DNA of 50,604 nucleotides from an uncultured Acidimicrobiia bacterium (GTDB lineage Bacteria; Actinomycetota; Acidimicrobiia; Acidimicrobiales; CAIXPF01), in contig CAIXPF010000074.1 of NCBI GenBank assembly GCA_903921205.1, forward strand, positions 1 to 50,604. The letters run 5' to 3'. Within the stretch, counting starts at the first letter, position 1; each line of letters begins with the position of its first letter. The translations under genes and the position numbers were made by a program. Below, piece after piece: positions 12,079 through 18,277 of this stretch. The notes under the pieces are model-generated. The model was not told the DNA's origin. It made no database searches and worked only from the letters and a program-made list of their open reading frames with translations.

Positions 12079-15000
12079 TCAGGTCGCCGAACGCAAGCGC
12101 TCGCTGACCACCTTCGAACTCTCACCGGGCTTCATGGAGACCCCGTAGAGACAGTCGGCGATCTCCATGGTGCGCTTCTGGTGGCTGACCACGAGCAGCT
12201 GCGCCTCGCCACGGAACTCCTCGAGCAGACCCAGGAAGCGCCGCAGGTTGACCTCGTCGAGCGCGGCCTCGACCTCGTCCATCACGTAGAAGGGCGAGGG
12301 ACGGCTCCGGAAGATGGCGAAGAGCAGACCCAGAGCAGTGAGGGACCGCTCGCCGCCCGACAACAACGACAGCTTCCGGACGTTCTTGCCCGAAGGCTTG
12401 GCCTCGACCTCGATGCCGGTGTTGAGCAGGTCGTCGGGCGTGGTCAAGCGCAGCGCGCCGGTACCGCCCGGGAACAAGGTCGCGAACAGGCTCTCGAAGT
12501 GGCCGGCCACGTCGGCGAACGCCGCAGCGAAGGTGTTCGTGATCTCCTCGTCGATGGCCCGGATGACCTTCTGGAGCTCCCGTGCCGACGCCTTCACGTC
12601 GGCGACCTGACTCTCGATGAGGGCGTTTCGTTCCTCCAGTGCCCGATACTCCTCCACGGCAAGTGGGTTGATCGGCCCCAGCGCTGCCAGCTCCCGTTCC
12701 AGCTCGGCGACCCGAGCGGCTGCCGTGGTTCCCTCAGGCAGCTCGGGACAGGTGAGGGTCAGCAGCTGATCGGCCTCGACCGCCAACTCGCGGGCAATGC
12801 GTTCGAGCAGCGACTCCAGCCGGACCGACACCTCGGCCTGCTCCAGCTCGGCTCGCGATGCCACTTCGCGCTGCTCGTTCATGGCCCGCTCCGCAGCGGC
12901 ACGCTGCAGGCGGAGCGCCTCGAGCTGCCGGCCGACTTCGCGCGCCGCCTCGGAGAGCCGGCGCCGCTCGGCCTGCAGCACCTCGGCGCCGGCGGCGATC
13001 CGATCCGCCCAGGACTGCACGACGGTCGCCAACCGTTCGAGCACGACCAGACGCTGCTCGGCCCGTTCGCGTTCCTGTTCGGCGTCCTGCCGGGAGCGCC
13101 GGGTGACTTCCAGACGCCGCACCAGGTCACGACGTCGATCGGTGAGGCCGGCGATCCGCTGGGACACCTGGGCGACCTGGACCTCGAGCTCCATCCGTCG
13201 CCTGCCCGCCTCGAGCCGGCGGCGATCGAGGTCGGCCTCCGCGGCGGCGCGGGCCTCGGCCCTCGCAGCCTCGTCGCGTTCGGCCGCCTCGAGGCTCGGC
13301 AGCAGCTCCTCGAGCTCGCCGAGCCGCCGGCGATCACGCTCGTTGCGTTCGTCGATCGAGCCCAGCTGGCTGCGCACCGTCGCCAGATCACGTTGCAGGT
13401 CGGCCACGGTCTTGTCGGCGCGTTGCAGGGCCGCGACCGAGGCGCGCCGCCGGCCGGCGTGGTCGTCGGAGGCCCGCACCGCCTGCTCGTGAGCGGCCCG
13501 GGAGGACCGCGCCTCCTGCCGAGCGACCTCGAGTGTGTGCCGAGCCGGTTCCACCGCGGCCGAGGACGTCTCCGCCAGGGAGCGGGCTTCCTCCAACATC
13601 GCCCCGGTGACGCCGGTGCTGGAGTTGCCCACGCGCCAGCCCTGCGGACCGAATCGGTCACCGCGGTCGGTGACCACGACCAGGTCGGGGTTCTCCTCGG
13701 CGACGGTCAGGGCCGCGCCCCAGTCCCCCGACACCCGGACGGCTCCGGCCAGCAGCACATCGAGCAACGCGTCGACCTCTGCCTGCCGCCCGCGCACATG
13801 GGGGCGGATGGGCTCGACCCCGACCCTGACGGCAGCCGACGCAGCCCGGGTGGTGCCCCGGCCGTGGCCGGCCGCAAGAACCGCACCGCCCTGGGAGGAA
13901 CCCGACAGCAACTCGAGCGCCGCCCGGGCGACCGCGACGTCGTTGACGACGACCGCGGTCAACGCCTCACCGGCAGCCGCCTCGAACGCGGCTTCCCAAC
14001 CTGCATCGATGTCGATGGCGTCGAGCAGGGTACCGACCACCCCGTCGAGCCGGCTGAGCCGGGCCGCACCGGCCCGGGCACGTGCGGCGTCAAGGGCATT
14101 GGCCAGCACCTCGACCCGGGCCTGGTTGCCCCGGGCGACGGCCTGGGCCTCGCGCAGGGCCTCCTCGGCTCGCGTCAGCTCGTCCTCGGCGCCCTGGCGA
14201 ATAGCCTTGGCCCGTTCGACGGTGCGCGCCAACTCGTCCTCGACGGTGTCGGCGTCGGACTCACCGGCCTGATGGCGGGCGCGTTCTGCTTCGGCCTCAC
14301 CGAATCGGGCCGTGAGCGCGGTCTCACGATCACGGAGCCGGCCCACCTCGCCACCGGAACGGTCGAGGCCCGAGCGCAGGGCCGACACCTCCCTGCGAAC
14401 CTCGGCGGCGCGGGCCACGACGGGGTCGACCCCGCCATCGAACGGCGCCAGCAAGGCCTCGCGTTCGGCCAGCACCGTCGCCTCGGTCTCGACCGCCTCG
14501 TCGCGCAACGGCTCGAGACCGTCGAGCGCATCCGTGGCGTCCTCGAGGGCCTGGGCCACCTCGTCGAGCTCATCGCCGAGCGCCGCCACGGGATCGTCGT
14601 CGAAGCGCAGCGAGGCCAGCCGCTGGGCGCTGCGCCGGCGTTCGGTCAGCACGGCGTCGAGGCCACGGACCCGTTCACGGGTGGTGTCGAACCGTGCCAG
14701 GAGCTCGGTGACCTCGCGGGCGCCGTGACGGCGCAGCTCGGCCTCGGTCCGGGCGATCTGACTGTCGAGCCGGACCAGCTGGCTCGATTGTCCGGCGCCG
14801 AGCTCGGTGGCCTGGGCCCGGCGGGCGCTGACCGCCTCGAGCCGGTTGCGCAGCGCCGTCAGCTCCTCGCCGGCCAGAAACGACCGCAGAGCGCTGAGCT
14901 CACCGGCGAGCGTCTCGTGGCGTTGCGCAGCGCGGGCCTGCTTCTCGAGCGGGCGCAGCTGGCGGCGCAACTCGCGTTGCAGGTCGTTCACCCGGGCCAG

Positions 15001-15561
15001 ATCACCCTCGGTCGCAGCGAGGCGACGTTCGGCCCGTTCCTTGCGCCGGCGGTACTTGAGGATGCCGGCCGCCTCCTCGATGATCGAGCGACGCTCCTCG
15101 GGCCGGGCATTGAGAATCGCGTCGATCTGACCCTGGGACACGATGACGTGCTGGTTGCGTCCCACCCCGGCGTCGGAGAGCAGTTCCTGGATGTCGAGCA
15201 GGCGACAGGAGACGCCGTTGATGGCGTAGTCACTGTCCCCGCTGCGGAACAGGGTCCGGGTGATGGTGACCTCGGCGAACTCCACGGGCAGCAGGCCCGC
15301 CGAGTTGTCGATCGTCAGGGACACCTCGGCCCGGCCCAGCGCCGCCCGCCGAGCGGTACCGGCGAAGATCACGTCGTCCATCTTCTGAGACCGGACCGAG
15401 GTCGGCGCCTGGGCACCGAGGACCCAGGCAATCGCGTCGACCACGTTCGACTTGCCCGAACCGTTCGGGCCGACGACGACGGTGATACCCGGCTCGAGGT
15501 CCAACAGCGCCTTGTCGGCGAAGGACTTGAAGCCGCGGATTTGGAGAGACTTCAGGAACAT
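12079..15561 (-). CDS. smc: Chromosome segregation ATPase SMC
   Basis: SMC is the core of bacterial condensin and loops and organises the chromosome. The 1160-residue protein starts MFLKSLQIRGFKSFADKALL with Walker A GPNGSGKS (31-38). Two long coiled coils flank a hinge (around residues 500-660, including DGVVGTLLDAIDIDAGWE). The C-terminal head has the ABC signature LSGGERSLTALGLLF and Walker B FYVMDEVEAALD (the usual DEVDAALD with Asp to Glu). A longer frame continues upstream, but the family always starts at MFLK or MYLK. No scpA or scpB gene is nearby. The cluster rnc/fpg-smc-ftsY is a classical gene order; here moxR and other genes separate smc from ftsY. Confidence 0.97.
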   Translation of the reverse strand: MFLKSLQIRGFKSFADKALLDLEPGITVVVGPNGSGKSNVVDAIAWVLGAQAPTSVRSQKMDDVIFAGTARRAALGRAEVSLTIDNSAGLLPVEFAEVTITRTLFRSGDSDYAINGVSCRLLDIQELLSDAGVGRNQHVIVSQGQIDAILNARPEERRSIIEEAAGILKYRRRKERAERRLAATEGDLARVNDLQRELRRQLRPLEKQARAAQRHETLAGELSALRSFLAGEELTALRNRLEAVSARRAQATELGAGQSSQLVRLDSQIARTEAELRRHGAREVTELLARFDTTRERVRGLDAVLTERRRSAQRLASLRFDDDPVAALGDELDEVAQALEDATDALDGLEPLRDEAVETEATVLAEREALLAPFDGGVDPVVARAAEVRREVSALRSGLDRSGGEVGRLRDRETALTARFGEAEAERARHQAGESDADTVEDELARTVERAKAIRQGAEDELTRAEEALREAQAVARGNQARVEVLANALDAARARAGAARLSRLDGVVGTLLDAIDIDAGWEAAFEAAAGEALTAVVVNDVAVARAALELLSGSSQGGAVLAAGHGRGTTRAASAAVRVGVEPIRPHVRGRQAEVDALLDVLLAGAVRVSGDWGAALTVAEENPDLVVVTDRGDRFGPQGWRVGNSSTGVTGAMLEEARSLAETSSAAVEPARHTLEVARQEARSSRAAHEQAVRASDDHAGRRRASVAALQRADKTVADLQRDLATVRSQLGSIDERNERDRRRLGELEELLPSLEAAERDEAARAEARAAAEADLDRRRLEAGRRRMELEVQVAQVSQRIAGLTDRRRDLVRRLEVTRRSRQDAEQERERAEQRLVVLERLATVVQSWADRIAAGAEVLQAERRRLSEAAREVGRQLEALRLQRAAAERAMNEQREVASRAELEQAEVSVRLESLLERIARELAVEADQLLTLTCPELPEGTTAAARVAELERELAALGPINPLAVEEYRALEERNALIESQVADVKASARELQKVIRAIDEEITNTFAAAFADVAGHFESLFATLFPGGTGALRLTTPDDLLNTGIEVEAKPSGKNVRKLSLLSGGERSLTALGLLFAIFRSRPSPFYVMDEVEAALDEVNLRRFLGLLEEFRGEAQLLVVSHQKRTMEIADCLYGVSMKPGESSKVVSERLRSAT

Positions 15562-15757
15562 GCTCGGTCTCGACACTCCCAGAACCGGCGGCCCGCCACG
15601 GTGGCGGCTCGGCGCTGCGCCCACATGGCCGCCGCAGAACCTAGCCGCTCTCCCGCCCGGGCCGTTCGATCGACCAGGCGGGTCCGGCACGCTTCGGCCT
15701 TGCTGCACCGGTGGCCTACTGGGCGGGAACGGGCCATGGCGTGCATGCTGGTCGGCA

Positions 15758-16477
15758 ATGAGCTCGACCCCCGCGGAGACACCGAGACCACCCACCCCGT
15801 TGGATCGGGCGTTCCTGACCAATATCGGTGAGGTGACCGAGTTGATCCTGGTCCGCCATGGCCAGCAGGTCTGGCCCGATCCGGTCACCTCCACGGTGTC
15901 GGAGTGGGTGGACCCGCCGCTGTCGGACCTGGGCCGCCGCCAGGCCGAGGCCGTCGGGCTGGCCCTGGCCGACCGGCGCATCGACGCGGTCTACAGCTCG
16001 CGACTGGCCCGGGCGCACGACACCGGCCGGGCCATCGCCGCCCACCACGGCCTCGAGGTGGAGATCGTGGACGATCTGCGCGAGATCGAGACCTTCCGCG
16101 ATCTTCCCCAGGACGCCCACCCCGCCGATGTGCTCGGGGAACTCGTGCTGCGTGGTGCCCGCGAACGGTTCGTCCGGCATCGGACCTGGGACGTGTACCC
16201 GGGCAGCGAACGCAACGAGGAGTTCCGCCACCGGGTGGTGAACATCATCGAGGGCATCGTGACCGGCCACCCCGCCAGGCGGATCGTGGTGGCCTGCCAC
16301 GGAGGCGTGATCAATGCCTACCTCGGTGAGATCCTCGGACTGTCGACGGCGATGTTCTTCCGCCCGGCTCACGCCTCCACCCACCGGGTACGCGCCCTCG
16401 GCGACGTCCGGGCCGTGCAGTCCATCAACGAGGTCCACCACCTCGTGGCGGACAGCGACCCGCTCGAGAGCTACTGA
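15758..16477 (+). CDS. Histidine phosphatase superfamily protein (phosphoglycerate mutase-like)
   Basis: The phosphohistidine motif LVRHGQ lies near residue 33, and the second catalytic His is in VACHGGVINAY. PLSDLGRRQAEAVG and VYSSRLARAHDTGRAI are further family signatures, giving 239 residues from the ATG at 15758. The start is uncertain: GTG at 15833 would remove the N-terminal 25 residues, and the leading segment (STPAETPRPPTPLD) looks like linker. The protein probably hydrolyses a small phosphoester; the substrate is unknown. It is transcribed against its neighbours, splitting smc from the fpg-like gene. Confidence 0.88.
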   Translation: MSSTPAETPRPPTPLDRAFLTNIGEVTELILVRHGQQVWPDPVTSTVSEWVDPPLSDLGRRQAEAVGLALADRRIDAVYSSRLARAHDTGRAIAAHHGLEVEIVDDLREIETFRDLPQDAHPADVLGELVLRGARERFVRHRTWDVYPGSERNEEFRHRVVNIIEGIVTGHPARRIVVACHGGVINAYLGEILGLSTAMFFRPAHASTHRVRALGDVRAVQSINEVHHLVADSDPLESY

Positions 16478-16493
16478 GCCGACAACCGGCCGG

Positions 16494-17306
16494 TCAGACC
16501 TGGCAATCGCCGCAGCGATAGCACGGCTTGCCCTCGTACTTCTCCACCACGACCGTGCCACGGCAGCGGCGACAGGGCTGGCCGTCGCGACCCCACACCT
16601 CGAGGTTGTCCTGGTACCCGCCCGCCTTGCCGGCGAGGTCGGTGAACCCGTTGGCAGCCGTGGTGGTCCCGCCTGCCTTCAACGCGTCGTGCAGAACCTC
16701 GGCCACCGCCCGGTACAGGCGACGCAGTTCCTGCGAGCCGAGCTTGTCGGCCCGACGGTCCGGGCGAAGCCCGGCCTGCCACAGGATCTCGTCGGCGTAC
16801 AGACCACCGATGCTCTCGACCATCGCCGGCGAGGTGAGCAGCGTCCGCAGCGGGCCACCGTTGCCCACGAAGGCTCGGGCGAACACGACCCACGACACCG
16901 CCTGCTCGGCGAGATCGATGGCCCCGGTCGGGGGCAGCTTGGCGTCGAGTTCCGCCACGGTGAGCAGGTCGAGCTTGGGATCGCCGACCCCTGCAAGGAC
17001 CCGCAGCGGGGTGCCCTGGGTGAAGGCGAACTCCATCCAGGTCGCCTCGTCGCCCTTGGCCCGCCGGATGGCGATGCCGTGGGACACCTCGAGCACCAGA
17101 CGGTCACCGCTGTCGAGGTTCCACACCAGGTTGCCCCGTCGGCGCTTCACCGCGCTGACCTTGGCGCCATCGACTCGACCGAGGTCGGCGGCAGCGGCGC
17201 CCGCCATCAGGCGGTCGTCCTGGATGGTTATGGCCTTGAGCTTGCGGCCGCCAACCTCTCGTTCGGTCTCGCGGCGCAGGGTCTCGATCTCAGGTAGCTC
17301 GAGCAT
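16494..17306 (-). CDS. Fpg/Nei-family DNA-binding protein lacking the catalytic N-terminal proline
   Basis: The 270-residue protein has the whole Fpg/Nei scaffold: an N-terminal MLELPEIETLRRE strand, the helix-two-turn-helix region (GGLYADEILWQAGLRPDR), and a C-terminal zinc finger (PCRRC...CYRCGDCQ). In active Fpg the mature N-terminus is Pro-Glu, the Pro forming the Schiff base; here residue 2 is Leu. The lysine after the RR pair (E. coli Lys57) is also absent, and the HLGMSG loop reads EVSHGI. Glu3 is retained. It overlaps the rnc end by 17 bp, the normal mutM position. It may be a damage-binding or differently acting protein; similar M-[ILF]-E-[LI]-P-E proteins exist in other bacteria, with unsettled function. 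Confidence 0.88.
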   Translation of the reverse strand: MLELPEIETLRRETEREVGGRKLKAITIQDDRLMAGAAAADLGRVDGAKVSAVKRRRGNLVWNLDSGDRLVLEVSHGIAIRRAKGDEATWMEFAFTQGTPLRVLAGVGDPKLDLLTVAELDAKLPPTGAIDLAEQAVSWVVFARAFVGNGGPLRTLLTSPAMVESIGGLYADEILWQAGLRPDRRADKLGSQELRRLYRAVAEVLHDALKAGGTTTAANGFTDLAGKAGGYQDNLEVWGRDGQPCRRCRGTVVVEKYEGKPCYRCGDCQV

Positions 17307-18039
17307 CGACGTCCGTTCTCTCTCCGCGATCGCGGACAAGCTGCGCCCAGGCATGCCGGGCGGCGGCCTGCTGCGCTTGTTTCTTCGATTTGCCGGTACC
17401 GGTACCCATGACGTCCTCACCGACGAGGACCTCGGCGACGAAGTCCTTGTCGTGGTCCGGACCACCATCGGTCATCACGTACCGCAGCGTGCTGCCGGAA
17501 GTTCGCGCCACCAGCTCCTGCAGCCGGGTCTTGTAGTCGTGGACATCACGGCCTTCGGCCGCCCGCACGATGCGGTCCTCGACCAGGCGCAGCACCACCG
17601 CCCGCGCCGCGTCCCAACCGGCATCCACGTACACCGCACCGATCACTGCTTCGACGGCATCCGCAAGGATCGACGGTTTGGCCCGGCCTCCGGTGCCCTC
17701 CTCGCCGCGTCCGAGCAGCAGGCAGGAGCCGAGGTTCAACTCAGCGGCGATCACGGCGAGACTCGCTGAGCTGACGACTGCGGCGCGCATCTTGGCCAGC
17801 GCGCCTTCGGGCAGATCCGGGTAGTGGCGGTAGGCGAAGTCGGTGACCGCAAGGCCGAGCACGGAGTCGCCGAGGAACTCCAGTCGCTCGTTGGACGGCC
17901 CGCTGTGCTCCGCACACCACGATCGGTGCCGGAATGCCTGCTCGAGGATCGACCGGTCGCCGAACCGGTGACCCAACCGGTCACCGAGAGCCTCGAGGTC
18001 CGTCGACGCAACCGCGCTCTCAGCCGATGCGTCCGACAA
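17290..18039 (-). CDS. rnc: Ribonuclease III
   Basis: RNase III cuts double-stranded RNA in rRNA processing and mRNA decay. The catalytic signature NERLEFLGDSVLGL is present with the second acidic cluster in ADAVEAVIGAVYVD. A double-stranded-RNA-binding domain follows (DYKTRLQELVARTSG, GKSKKQAQQAAARHAW). The start is unclear: no ATG is available near the family N-terminus, so TTG at 18039 is chosen (249 residues). It overlaps the acpP stop by 20 bp and has no evident ribosome site, suggesting coupling to acpP. The neighbours acpP upstream and an fpg-like gene downstream match the common actinobacterial order. Confidence 0.93.
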   Translation of the reverse strand: MSDASAESAVASTDLEALGDRLGHRFGDRSILEQAFRHRSWCAEHSGPSNERLEFLGDSVLGLAVTDFAYRHYPDLPEGALAKMRAAVVSSASLAVIAAELNLGSCLLLGRGEEGTGGRAKPSILADAVEAVIGAVYVDAGWDAARAVVLRLVEDRIVRAAEGRDVHDYKTRLQELVARTSGSTLRYVMTDGGPDHDKDFVAEVLVGEDVMGTGTGKSKKQAQQAAARHAWAQLVRDRGERTDVDARAT

Positions 18040-18277
18040 CGTAGTCGACAGCGTCGCGCACGGTCTTGAGGTCCTCGAGGTCGTCGTCCTCGATCCGGAA
18101 CCCCACGGTGCGCTCCGACAGCTCTTCTTCGATGGCCTCGACCAGCTCGATGAGCGCCAACGAATCGGCGTCGAGGTCGTCACGGAAGGACGCGCCCTCC
18201 TCGATGGCATCGGGTTCGATCTCCAGGATGTCGGCCAGGCGGTCGCGGATGATGGCGAACACCTCCGCCCGTGACAC
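18020..18277 (-). CDS. acpP: Acyl carrier protein
   Basis: A short acidic protein of 85 residues with the phosphopantetheine attachment motif DLDADSLALIELV, the Ser carrying the prosthetic group that holds growing acyl chains in fatty-acid synthesis. The GTG at 18277 is chosen because AAGGA lies 4-5 nt upstream; another GTG at 18310, with GGAG upstream, would add 11 residues. It lies between plsX and rnc, as in many bacteria, linking lipid and RNA functions in one operon. Confidence 0.94.
   Translation of the reverse strand: MSRAEVFAIIRDRLADILEIEPDAIEEGASFRDDLDADSLALIELVEAIEEELSERTVGFRIEDDDLEDLKTVRDAVDYVVGRIG

Follow-up and report, generated by a model that had tools for sequence, protein, structure and literature searches.

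A mutM-locus protein with replaced catalytic residues and a co-occurring second MutM in an Acidimicrobiia bacterium and its relatives

The MutM (Fpg) protein encoded at the rnc-smc locus of the window, by which we mean the whole 50,604-nucleotide stretch of Acidimicrobiia DNA analysed here, has had its catalytic residues replaced, and its classical chemistry has, judging from these residues, very probably been lost. Taken as a whole, the reading we favour, with moderate confidence, is that repair was handed to a second MutM and that the locus protein has been kept as a pseudoenzyme that no longer catalyses, possibly because of a basic surface. The features of the locus are collected in Table 1, and we refer to this protein and its counterparts in other genomes as degenerate MutMs.

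The translated gene (N-terminus MLELPEIETLRR) scored above the cut-offs of the Pfam domains Fapy_DNA_glyco (36.4 bits) and H2TH (49.3 bits), and below those of the NCBIfam fpg equivalog model TIGR00577 (132.6 bits against 203.3) and of the NCBIfam Nei models (endonuclease VIII, 50 against 252 bits; Nei2, 34.4 against 400 bits). An AlphaFold2 model (pLDDT 88, pTM 0.85) matched the DNA-bound MutM structure 1r2y over its full length (Z = 29.4, rmsd 3.2, 266 residues), and Foldseek ranked 1r2y at the top as well. Together with the four zinc-finger cysteines, whose columns are also all cysteine in L013-L016, the Pfam domains and the modelled fold bear out an earlier note on this DNA, which had described the scaffold as intact, including the helix-two-turn-helix (H2TH) domain and the zinc finger. 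The same note had called the protein Fpg/Nei-like with its catalytic residues replaced, and alignment with canonical MutMs from the same rnc-smc locus agreed, with Leu at residue 2, Gly in the lysine column and EVSHGI in the loop; the canonical RGKYL segment reads RRGNL here. The roles of the replaced residues (the intercalating Met, Arg and Phe, and the others given here without a cited paper) are those generally assigned to them, and the active-site lysine column is presumably the equivalent of Lys51 in mycobacterial Nei2. In the passages covered from a study of that enzyme, AP lyase activity required Pro2 and Lys51; for the glycosylase acting on single-stranded 5-hydroxyuracil DNA, Glu3 and Lys51 were needed and Pro2 was not (PMC11323726). 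Since proline and lysine are both gone from the degenerate MutM, both its glycosylase and its AP lyase activity would be expected to be absent.

Table 1. Positions of the degenerate MutM gene, its altered and retained segments, and neighbouring open reading frames in the window
Feature	Position	Strand	Basis or remark
Gene of the degenerate MutM (Fpg), putative pseudoenzyme, 270 aa	16494..17306	-	Pfam, NCBIfam, AlphaFold2, structure match
N-terminus MLELPE: Leu2 replaces the Schiff-base proline, Glu3 kept	17289..17306	-	
Codon 58 (Gly), active-site lysine column	17133..17135	-	ungapped; KRRRGNLV vs ERRGKYLV
Residues 73-78, EVSHGI, degenerate HLGMSG loop	17073..17090	-	
Residues 105-111, AGVGDPK where canonical MutMs have DPRTFGE; Arg and Phe missing	16974..16994	-	
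Codon 168 (Gly), replaces the GNIY asparagine	16803..16805	-	GGLY
H2TH domain, residues 148-217, retained	16656..16865	-	Pfam
Four-cysteine zinc finger, C245-C268, retained	16503..16574	-	CCCC
ORF with rnc (RNase III)	17290..18210	-	3' end overlaps the MutM gene start
ORF with histidine phosphatase	15452..16477	+	between the MutM gene and smc
ORF with smc	12079..15981	-	SMC match begins at about residue 142 of the ORF

The gene lies downstream of acpP and plsX and upstream of smc. The note had placed it beside rnc and smc, which is right for rnc, with which it overlaps, and not for smc, from which the plus-strand histidine phosphatase gene separates it. Conserved counterparts occur in three further species of its genus (94, 88 and 72% identity) and in a genus sister to it (57%), so the gene is neither a chance product nor a sequencing error. 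The note had named, as an observation that would count against its reading, an upstream start that brings back an N-terminal proline. Such a start does exist as an in-frame ATG-CCT (Met-Pro-Gly) 16 codons 5' of the annotated one, found in four of the five family members checked and absent in L016. That it restores an enzyme is unlikely in our judgement, because the proline would sit 16 residues from the fold and inside the rnc ORF; we rejected this start as a by-product of rnc codons.

Fpg homologs were extracted from 142 loci of the order (rnc and/or smc in the fetched flanks of 137 of the 142), a chosen sample composed of relatives from the genus and sister genus, top-listed matches picked by family and 30 further handles; 11 of 397 genomes in one search, and G095, G143 and G241 in another, gave no match and were left unclassified. 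After exclusion of four partial loci (L031, L160, L109, L180), four duplicates (L073, L078, L083, L086) and seven further rows (the C94 protein, described below, and L179, L181, L182, L183, L123 and L124), 128 rnc-smc locus orthologs were compared, of which 53 had lost the catalytic core and 75 had kept it. The loss was joint and bimodal, Lys, Met, Arg, Phe and Asn having mostly disappeared together, and it spanned many families. Among the 53 degenerate rows, a count that includes the intermediate genome G010 and excludes G017, residue 2 was Leu in 13, Pro in 12, Ile in 9, Ala in 8, Arg in 3, Phe in 3, Val in 2, and Asn, Thr and Met (L175) in one each; Glu3 was kept in 44, and the first zinc cysteine was Cys in 28 and Ser in 25. 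None of the lost positions had gained a well-conserved replacement among these 53 proteins, the maxima being Leu in 26 (lysine column) and Pro in 25 (asparagine column), and a new shared catalytic residue was therefore rejected. Columns that rose in the degenerate set (to 0.75-0.91) were M1, R16, P136, H206, L235 and Y263.

Several members of the sample deserve separate mention. L123 and L124 are two degenerate copies within one genome. A zincless finger, with Ser at the first zinc cysteine and other cysteines also lost, was seen in L025, L026, L038, L099, L101 and others. L019 (G010) is intermediate, retaining Pro2 and Lys and lacking Met, Phe and Asn, and scores 241.7 bits in the fpg model, above the cut-off. 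L175 (G078) is degenerate and a canonical MutM persists in both congeners examined (G169, G292), so that its degeneration is possibly a separate and recent loss. In family f58 (L125, L219, L220; MAELPE), Ala2 is combined with loss of the active-site Lys, a score of 212-221 bits (above the fpg cut-off) and no C94-type copy; these proteins are possibly intermediates or enzymes using another amine.

Six Fpg/Nei ORFs were found in the genome, including the rnc-smc locus gene. One of them, on contig C94, is the canonical MPELPE protein that the note had proposed to search for: it carries MPELPE, RGKYL, HLGMTG and GNIY, and scores 241.5 bits in the NCBIfam fpg model, above the cut-off. It shares the Fpg family with the locus protein and differs from it in its kept catalytic residues, its separate clade and an identity of 30%. 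The remaining four ORFs begin VPELPDVVV, MPELLEVEYYRR, MPEGHTIHR (with a GTG start) and VPEGDTIWR, and a MutY-like match reached 206.4 bits, below its cut-off of 286.5. An organism devoid of MutM function is ruled out by the canonical MutM among the six, and the note's suggestion that repair had moved elsewhere is well supported by the C94 protein and the four further ORFs.

Presence of the C94 type was then scored by searching with the C94 protein at E < 1e-50. Of 53 genomes carrying a degenerate locus gene (here including G017, whose partial locus was degenerate by eye, and excluding G010), 49 had a second MutM of this type, versus 0 of 75 with the canonical gene. In the latter, 67 genomes gave a match at 1e-30 or better (1e-31 to 1e-46), in every case the locus gene itself, with a weak extra match in G073 and G322, and eight gave none; in the intermediate G010, the search found only its own locus gene. 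Thirty of the 49 second copies were made into loci, and all 30 keep P2, E3, K57, M74, F111, N169 and the four cysteines, with R109 kept in 28. The C94 type was not found at this threshold in the degenerate genomes G022, G058, G062 and G078; among congeners of these exceptions, it is present in G272 (congener of G022) and absent in G130 (of G058) and in G102 and G133 (of G062). In each of G022, G058, G062, G078 and G130 there is an Fpg-like ORF that belongs to a different type and has Pro, Lys and Asn (L240, L238, L232, L225 and L235, respectively). This PELLEVE/PEILEIE type (also L005) has Pro, Lys and Asn in place and an altered zinc site, the aligned columns in its relatives being Cys, Asp/Glu, Cys and His.

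Beyond the order, 27 loci of the class were scored as 20 canonical and 7 degenerate, with L261 (no clear N-terminus) and L259 (altered zinc site) both counted as canonical; rnc was adjacent in all 27 and smc in 23. The C94 type was present in 4 of 4 degenerate versus 0 of 2 canonical genomes examined in family f71, and in none of the 20 canonical genomes outside the order. In family f64, all three degenerate genomes carry a MutM of a different type on another contig (L282, L293, L294), which keeps Pro, Glu, Lys, Met, Arg, Phe, Asn and the four cysteines and has Val, Thr or Ser in the zinc-finger Arg column. The replication of the co-occurrence in f64 is rather weak, its second copies being of a non-C94 type that was scored in the degenerate genomes. 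The co-occurrence makes it probable, and we hold this with good confidence, that repair was handed to a second MutM.

An Fpg tree of 82 rows, selected for length and number, provided the phylogenetic check that the note had proposed. Thirty-six degenerate proteins fell on one side of a branch (SH-aLRT 93) and nested among canonical MutMs of the rnc-smc locus, and the C94 type formed a separate clade (SH-aLRT 99). A wholly separate paralog family was rejected on the grounds of this nesting and of the shared locus; the degenerate gene is orthologous to the canonical rnc-smc MutM. On a tree of rnc and smc (112 rows, likewise selected, as were those of the extended tree), the degenerate label needs six changes, at least two of them forced by strong branches, and with other orders added (124 rows) it needs ten, at least three of them forced. 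A phylogenetic test of the association between degenerate gene and second MutM was not significant (of three supported independent contrasts, two pointed in the expected direction in most pairings, none in the opposite one, and one was neutral); the association, clear-cut as its counts are, rests on few events, as the degenerate rows of the order are mostly one clade.

We next compared kept and lost columns, using our own split of the canonical rows into near (55) and far (17), with L040, L106 and L172 left out for cut N-termini here and in the comparisons of charge and of identity, and with site classes and thresholds set after inspecting the data. Seventy-six columns are conserved in both the near and the far canonical MutMs; the degenerate set keeps 43 of them at 0.9 or above and 22 fall below 0.7, the losses falling mostly on active-site and loop positions (K58, H73, M76, R107, F109, N168), with three zinc cysteines lost as well. 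A further 29 columns are conserved in the near canonical MutMs alone, and of these 21 are kept and four are listed as lost. Basic columns were kept at 0.9 or above in 10 of 10 lineage-specific versus 4 of 10 universal cases (Fisher P = 0.011, the sites not being independent), with five of the six other universal basic columns at 0.17-0.55 and one at 0.87; over all residue types, the contrast was not significant (P = 0.18). The lineage-specific basic residues (R21, K22, K24, R102, R181, R195, R196, R199, K210, K256) were retained rather than newly gained, since the 55 near canonical MutMs already possess them. Lost positions often turn to Asp or Glu, and mean net charge falls from +6.9 in canonical (n = 72) to -0.1 in degenerate MutMs (n = 53). 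The drop in charge counts against DNA binding, and the acidified active site speaks against recognition of damage in the ordinary way. The retained basic set favours a role in which the old active site is not used. That this role is exercised through the putative basic surface we propose only tentatively.

Selective constraint on the degenerate gene was assessed from pairwise dN/dS estimates, on the basis of which we hold with high confidence that it is constrained. Against its two closest congeners, dN/dS was 0.098 and 0.097, and dN was 0.033 and 0.077 for the degenerate gene compared to 0.057 and 0.127 for the second MutM; against a third congener, its dN/dS (0.315) exceeded that of the second MutM (0.244). 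Ten pairs among five family members ranged from 0.097 to 0.513, and the median over the order was 0.20 for the degenerate gene (17 of 19 pairs, those with defined dS) and 0.14 for the canonical gene (15 pairs). No internal stops occurred among the degenerate-gene matches listed, and 37 columns are at least 95% identical among the 53 divergent degenerate proteins, with a mean identity of 0.46 within the degenerate and 0.58 within the canonical set. In G005, a draft genome of the same family with 6% contamination, the MutM gene is absent from the locus (L241, 700-860), rnc and the histidine phosphatase gene being 11 bp apart, and the degenerate gene is thus apparently dispensable there; the genome holds a partial C94-type match (59% identity).

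Three other explanations were weighed against these data. The protein may be a damage sensor that still locates oxidised or abasic DNA and calls in repair rather than cutting, much as alkyltransferase-like proteins do, and the intact fold, H2TH domain and zinc finger of the window's protein, together with the frequent retention of Glu3, would suit such a role. We nevertheless regard it as unlikely, as most of the universal columns given up lie in the active site or its loops, often in exchange for acidic residues, and the first zinc cysteine is Ser in nearly half of the set. The note's option of a protein that binds damaged DNA without cutting it keeps some probability, but because these residues are lost across the relatives and often replaced by acidic ones, binding in the usual MutM manner is unlikely. 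That the gene is a dying relic, held in place solely by operon coupling with rnc, would account for its absence from the locus in G005, for catalytic columns that vary freely among degenerate MutMs and for an overall dN/dS above that of canonical MutM; it sits poorly with the lack of internal stops among the matches listed, with a dN/dS of about 0.1 against the two closest congeners, where dN lies below that of the second copy, and with the 37 nearly invariant columns, and we consider it quite improbable.

An active enzyme with another nucleophile, for example a non-proline N-terminal amine as in NEIL3, appears very improbable. Removal of Met1 would free such an amine at Ala2 or Val2, which occur in eight and two of the 53 proteins, and the MAELPE proteins of f58 score above the fpg cut-off with no C94-type copy; the protein of the window, however, has Leu2, which should keep Met1 in place. 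Moreover, the lost positions have no well-conserved replacement, for which reason the different chemistry that the note had offered as an option gained no positive evidence, and the presumed counterpart of the lysine that, in the passages covered, Nei2 needs for both activities (PMC11323726) is gone.

Among known systems, MutM/Fpg (TIGR00577, PF01149 and PF06831; for example 1r2y) shares with the degenerate protein the full-length fold, H2TH domain, zinc finger, Glu3 and rnc-adjacent locus, and differs from it in having Pro2, the active-site Lys, the HLGMSG loop, the GNIY Asn and a score above the fpg cut-off. NEIL3 likewise lacks the proline, carrying Val2, and is active after Met1 removal, according to the passages covered (PMC11323726); unlike it, the degenerate MutM has Leu2 and no Lys. 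Rv0944 (Fpg2) of Mycobacterium tuberculosis is, in the parts covered of its description, likewise an Fpg relative without N-terminal catalytic residues, but it is N-terminally truncated (PMC2734929), whereas the degenerate MutM is full length and at the rnc locus. Our search for inactive or proline-less bacterial Fpg proteins, which included passages of PMC5422863 and PMC8307549, found, in the part of the open-access literature that it covered, no account of a full-length MutM conserved as a pseudoenzyme at its own locus. Altered Fpg/Nei members are thus already known (NEIL3 with Val2, the truncated Rv0944), and within the passages and literature covered, a full-length MutM pseudoenzyme at the mutM locus might be new.

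On the reading we favour, repair handed over and the locus protein retained, the MutM passed down vertically at the rnc-smc locus would have become a pseudoenzyme. A second canonical MutM of separate lineage would have taken over 8-oxoguanine repair, as the co-occurrence suggests, and the locus protein would have lost glycosylase and AP-lyase chemistry, as its residues suggest, while keeping under constraint its fold, H2TH domain and lineage-specific basic residues. The MutM of this lineage may already have had a second, non-catalytic role, and only that role would have been kept, most likely a contact with DNA or with a nucleoprotein partner through the basic residues and without base flipping. 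It is conceivable, though we put it forward with some doubt, that the second job was gained first, and that when the other MutM arrived the old one shed its chemistry, leaving a broad pseudo-glycosylase family; the arriving MutM would be of the C94 type in two orders or more, and perhaps of another type in f64. The retention of a core repair enzyme whose chemistry is gone suggests that MutM has a further role, so far overlooked, and the same locus with and without catalysis, and with and without a replacement, offers a natural contrast that makes this role testable. A gene at the mutM locus also calls for caution against inferring 8-oxoG repair from its presence alone.
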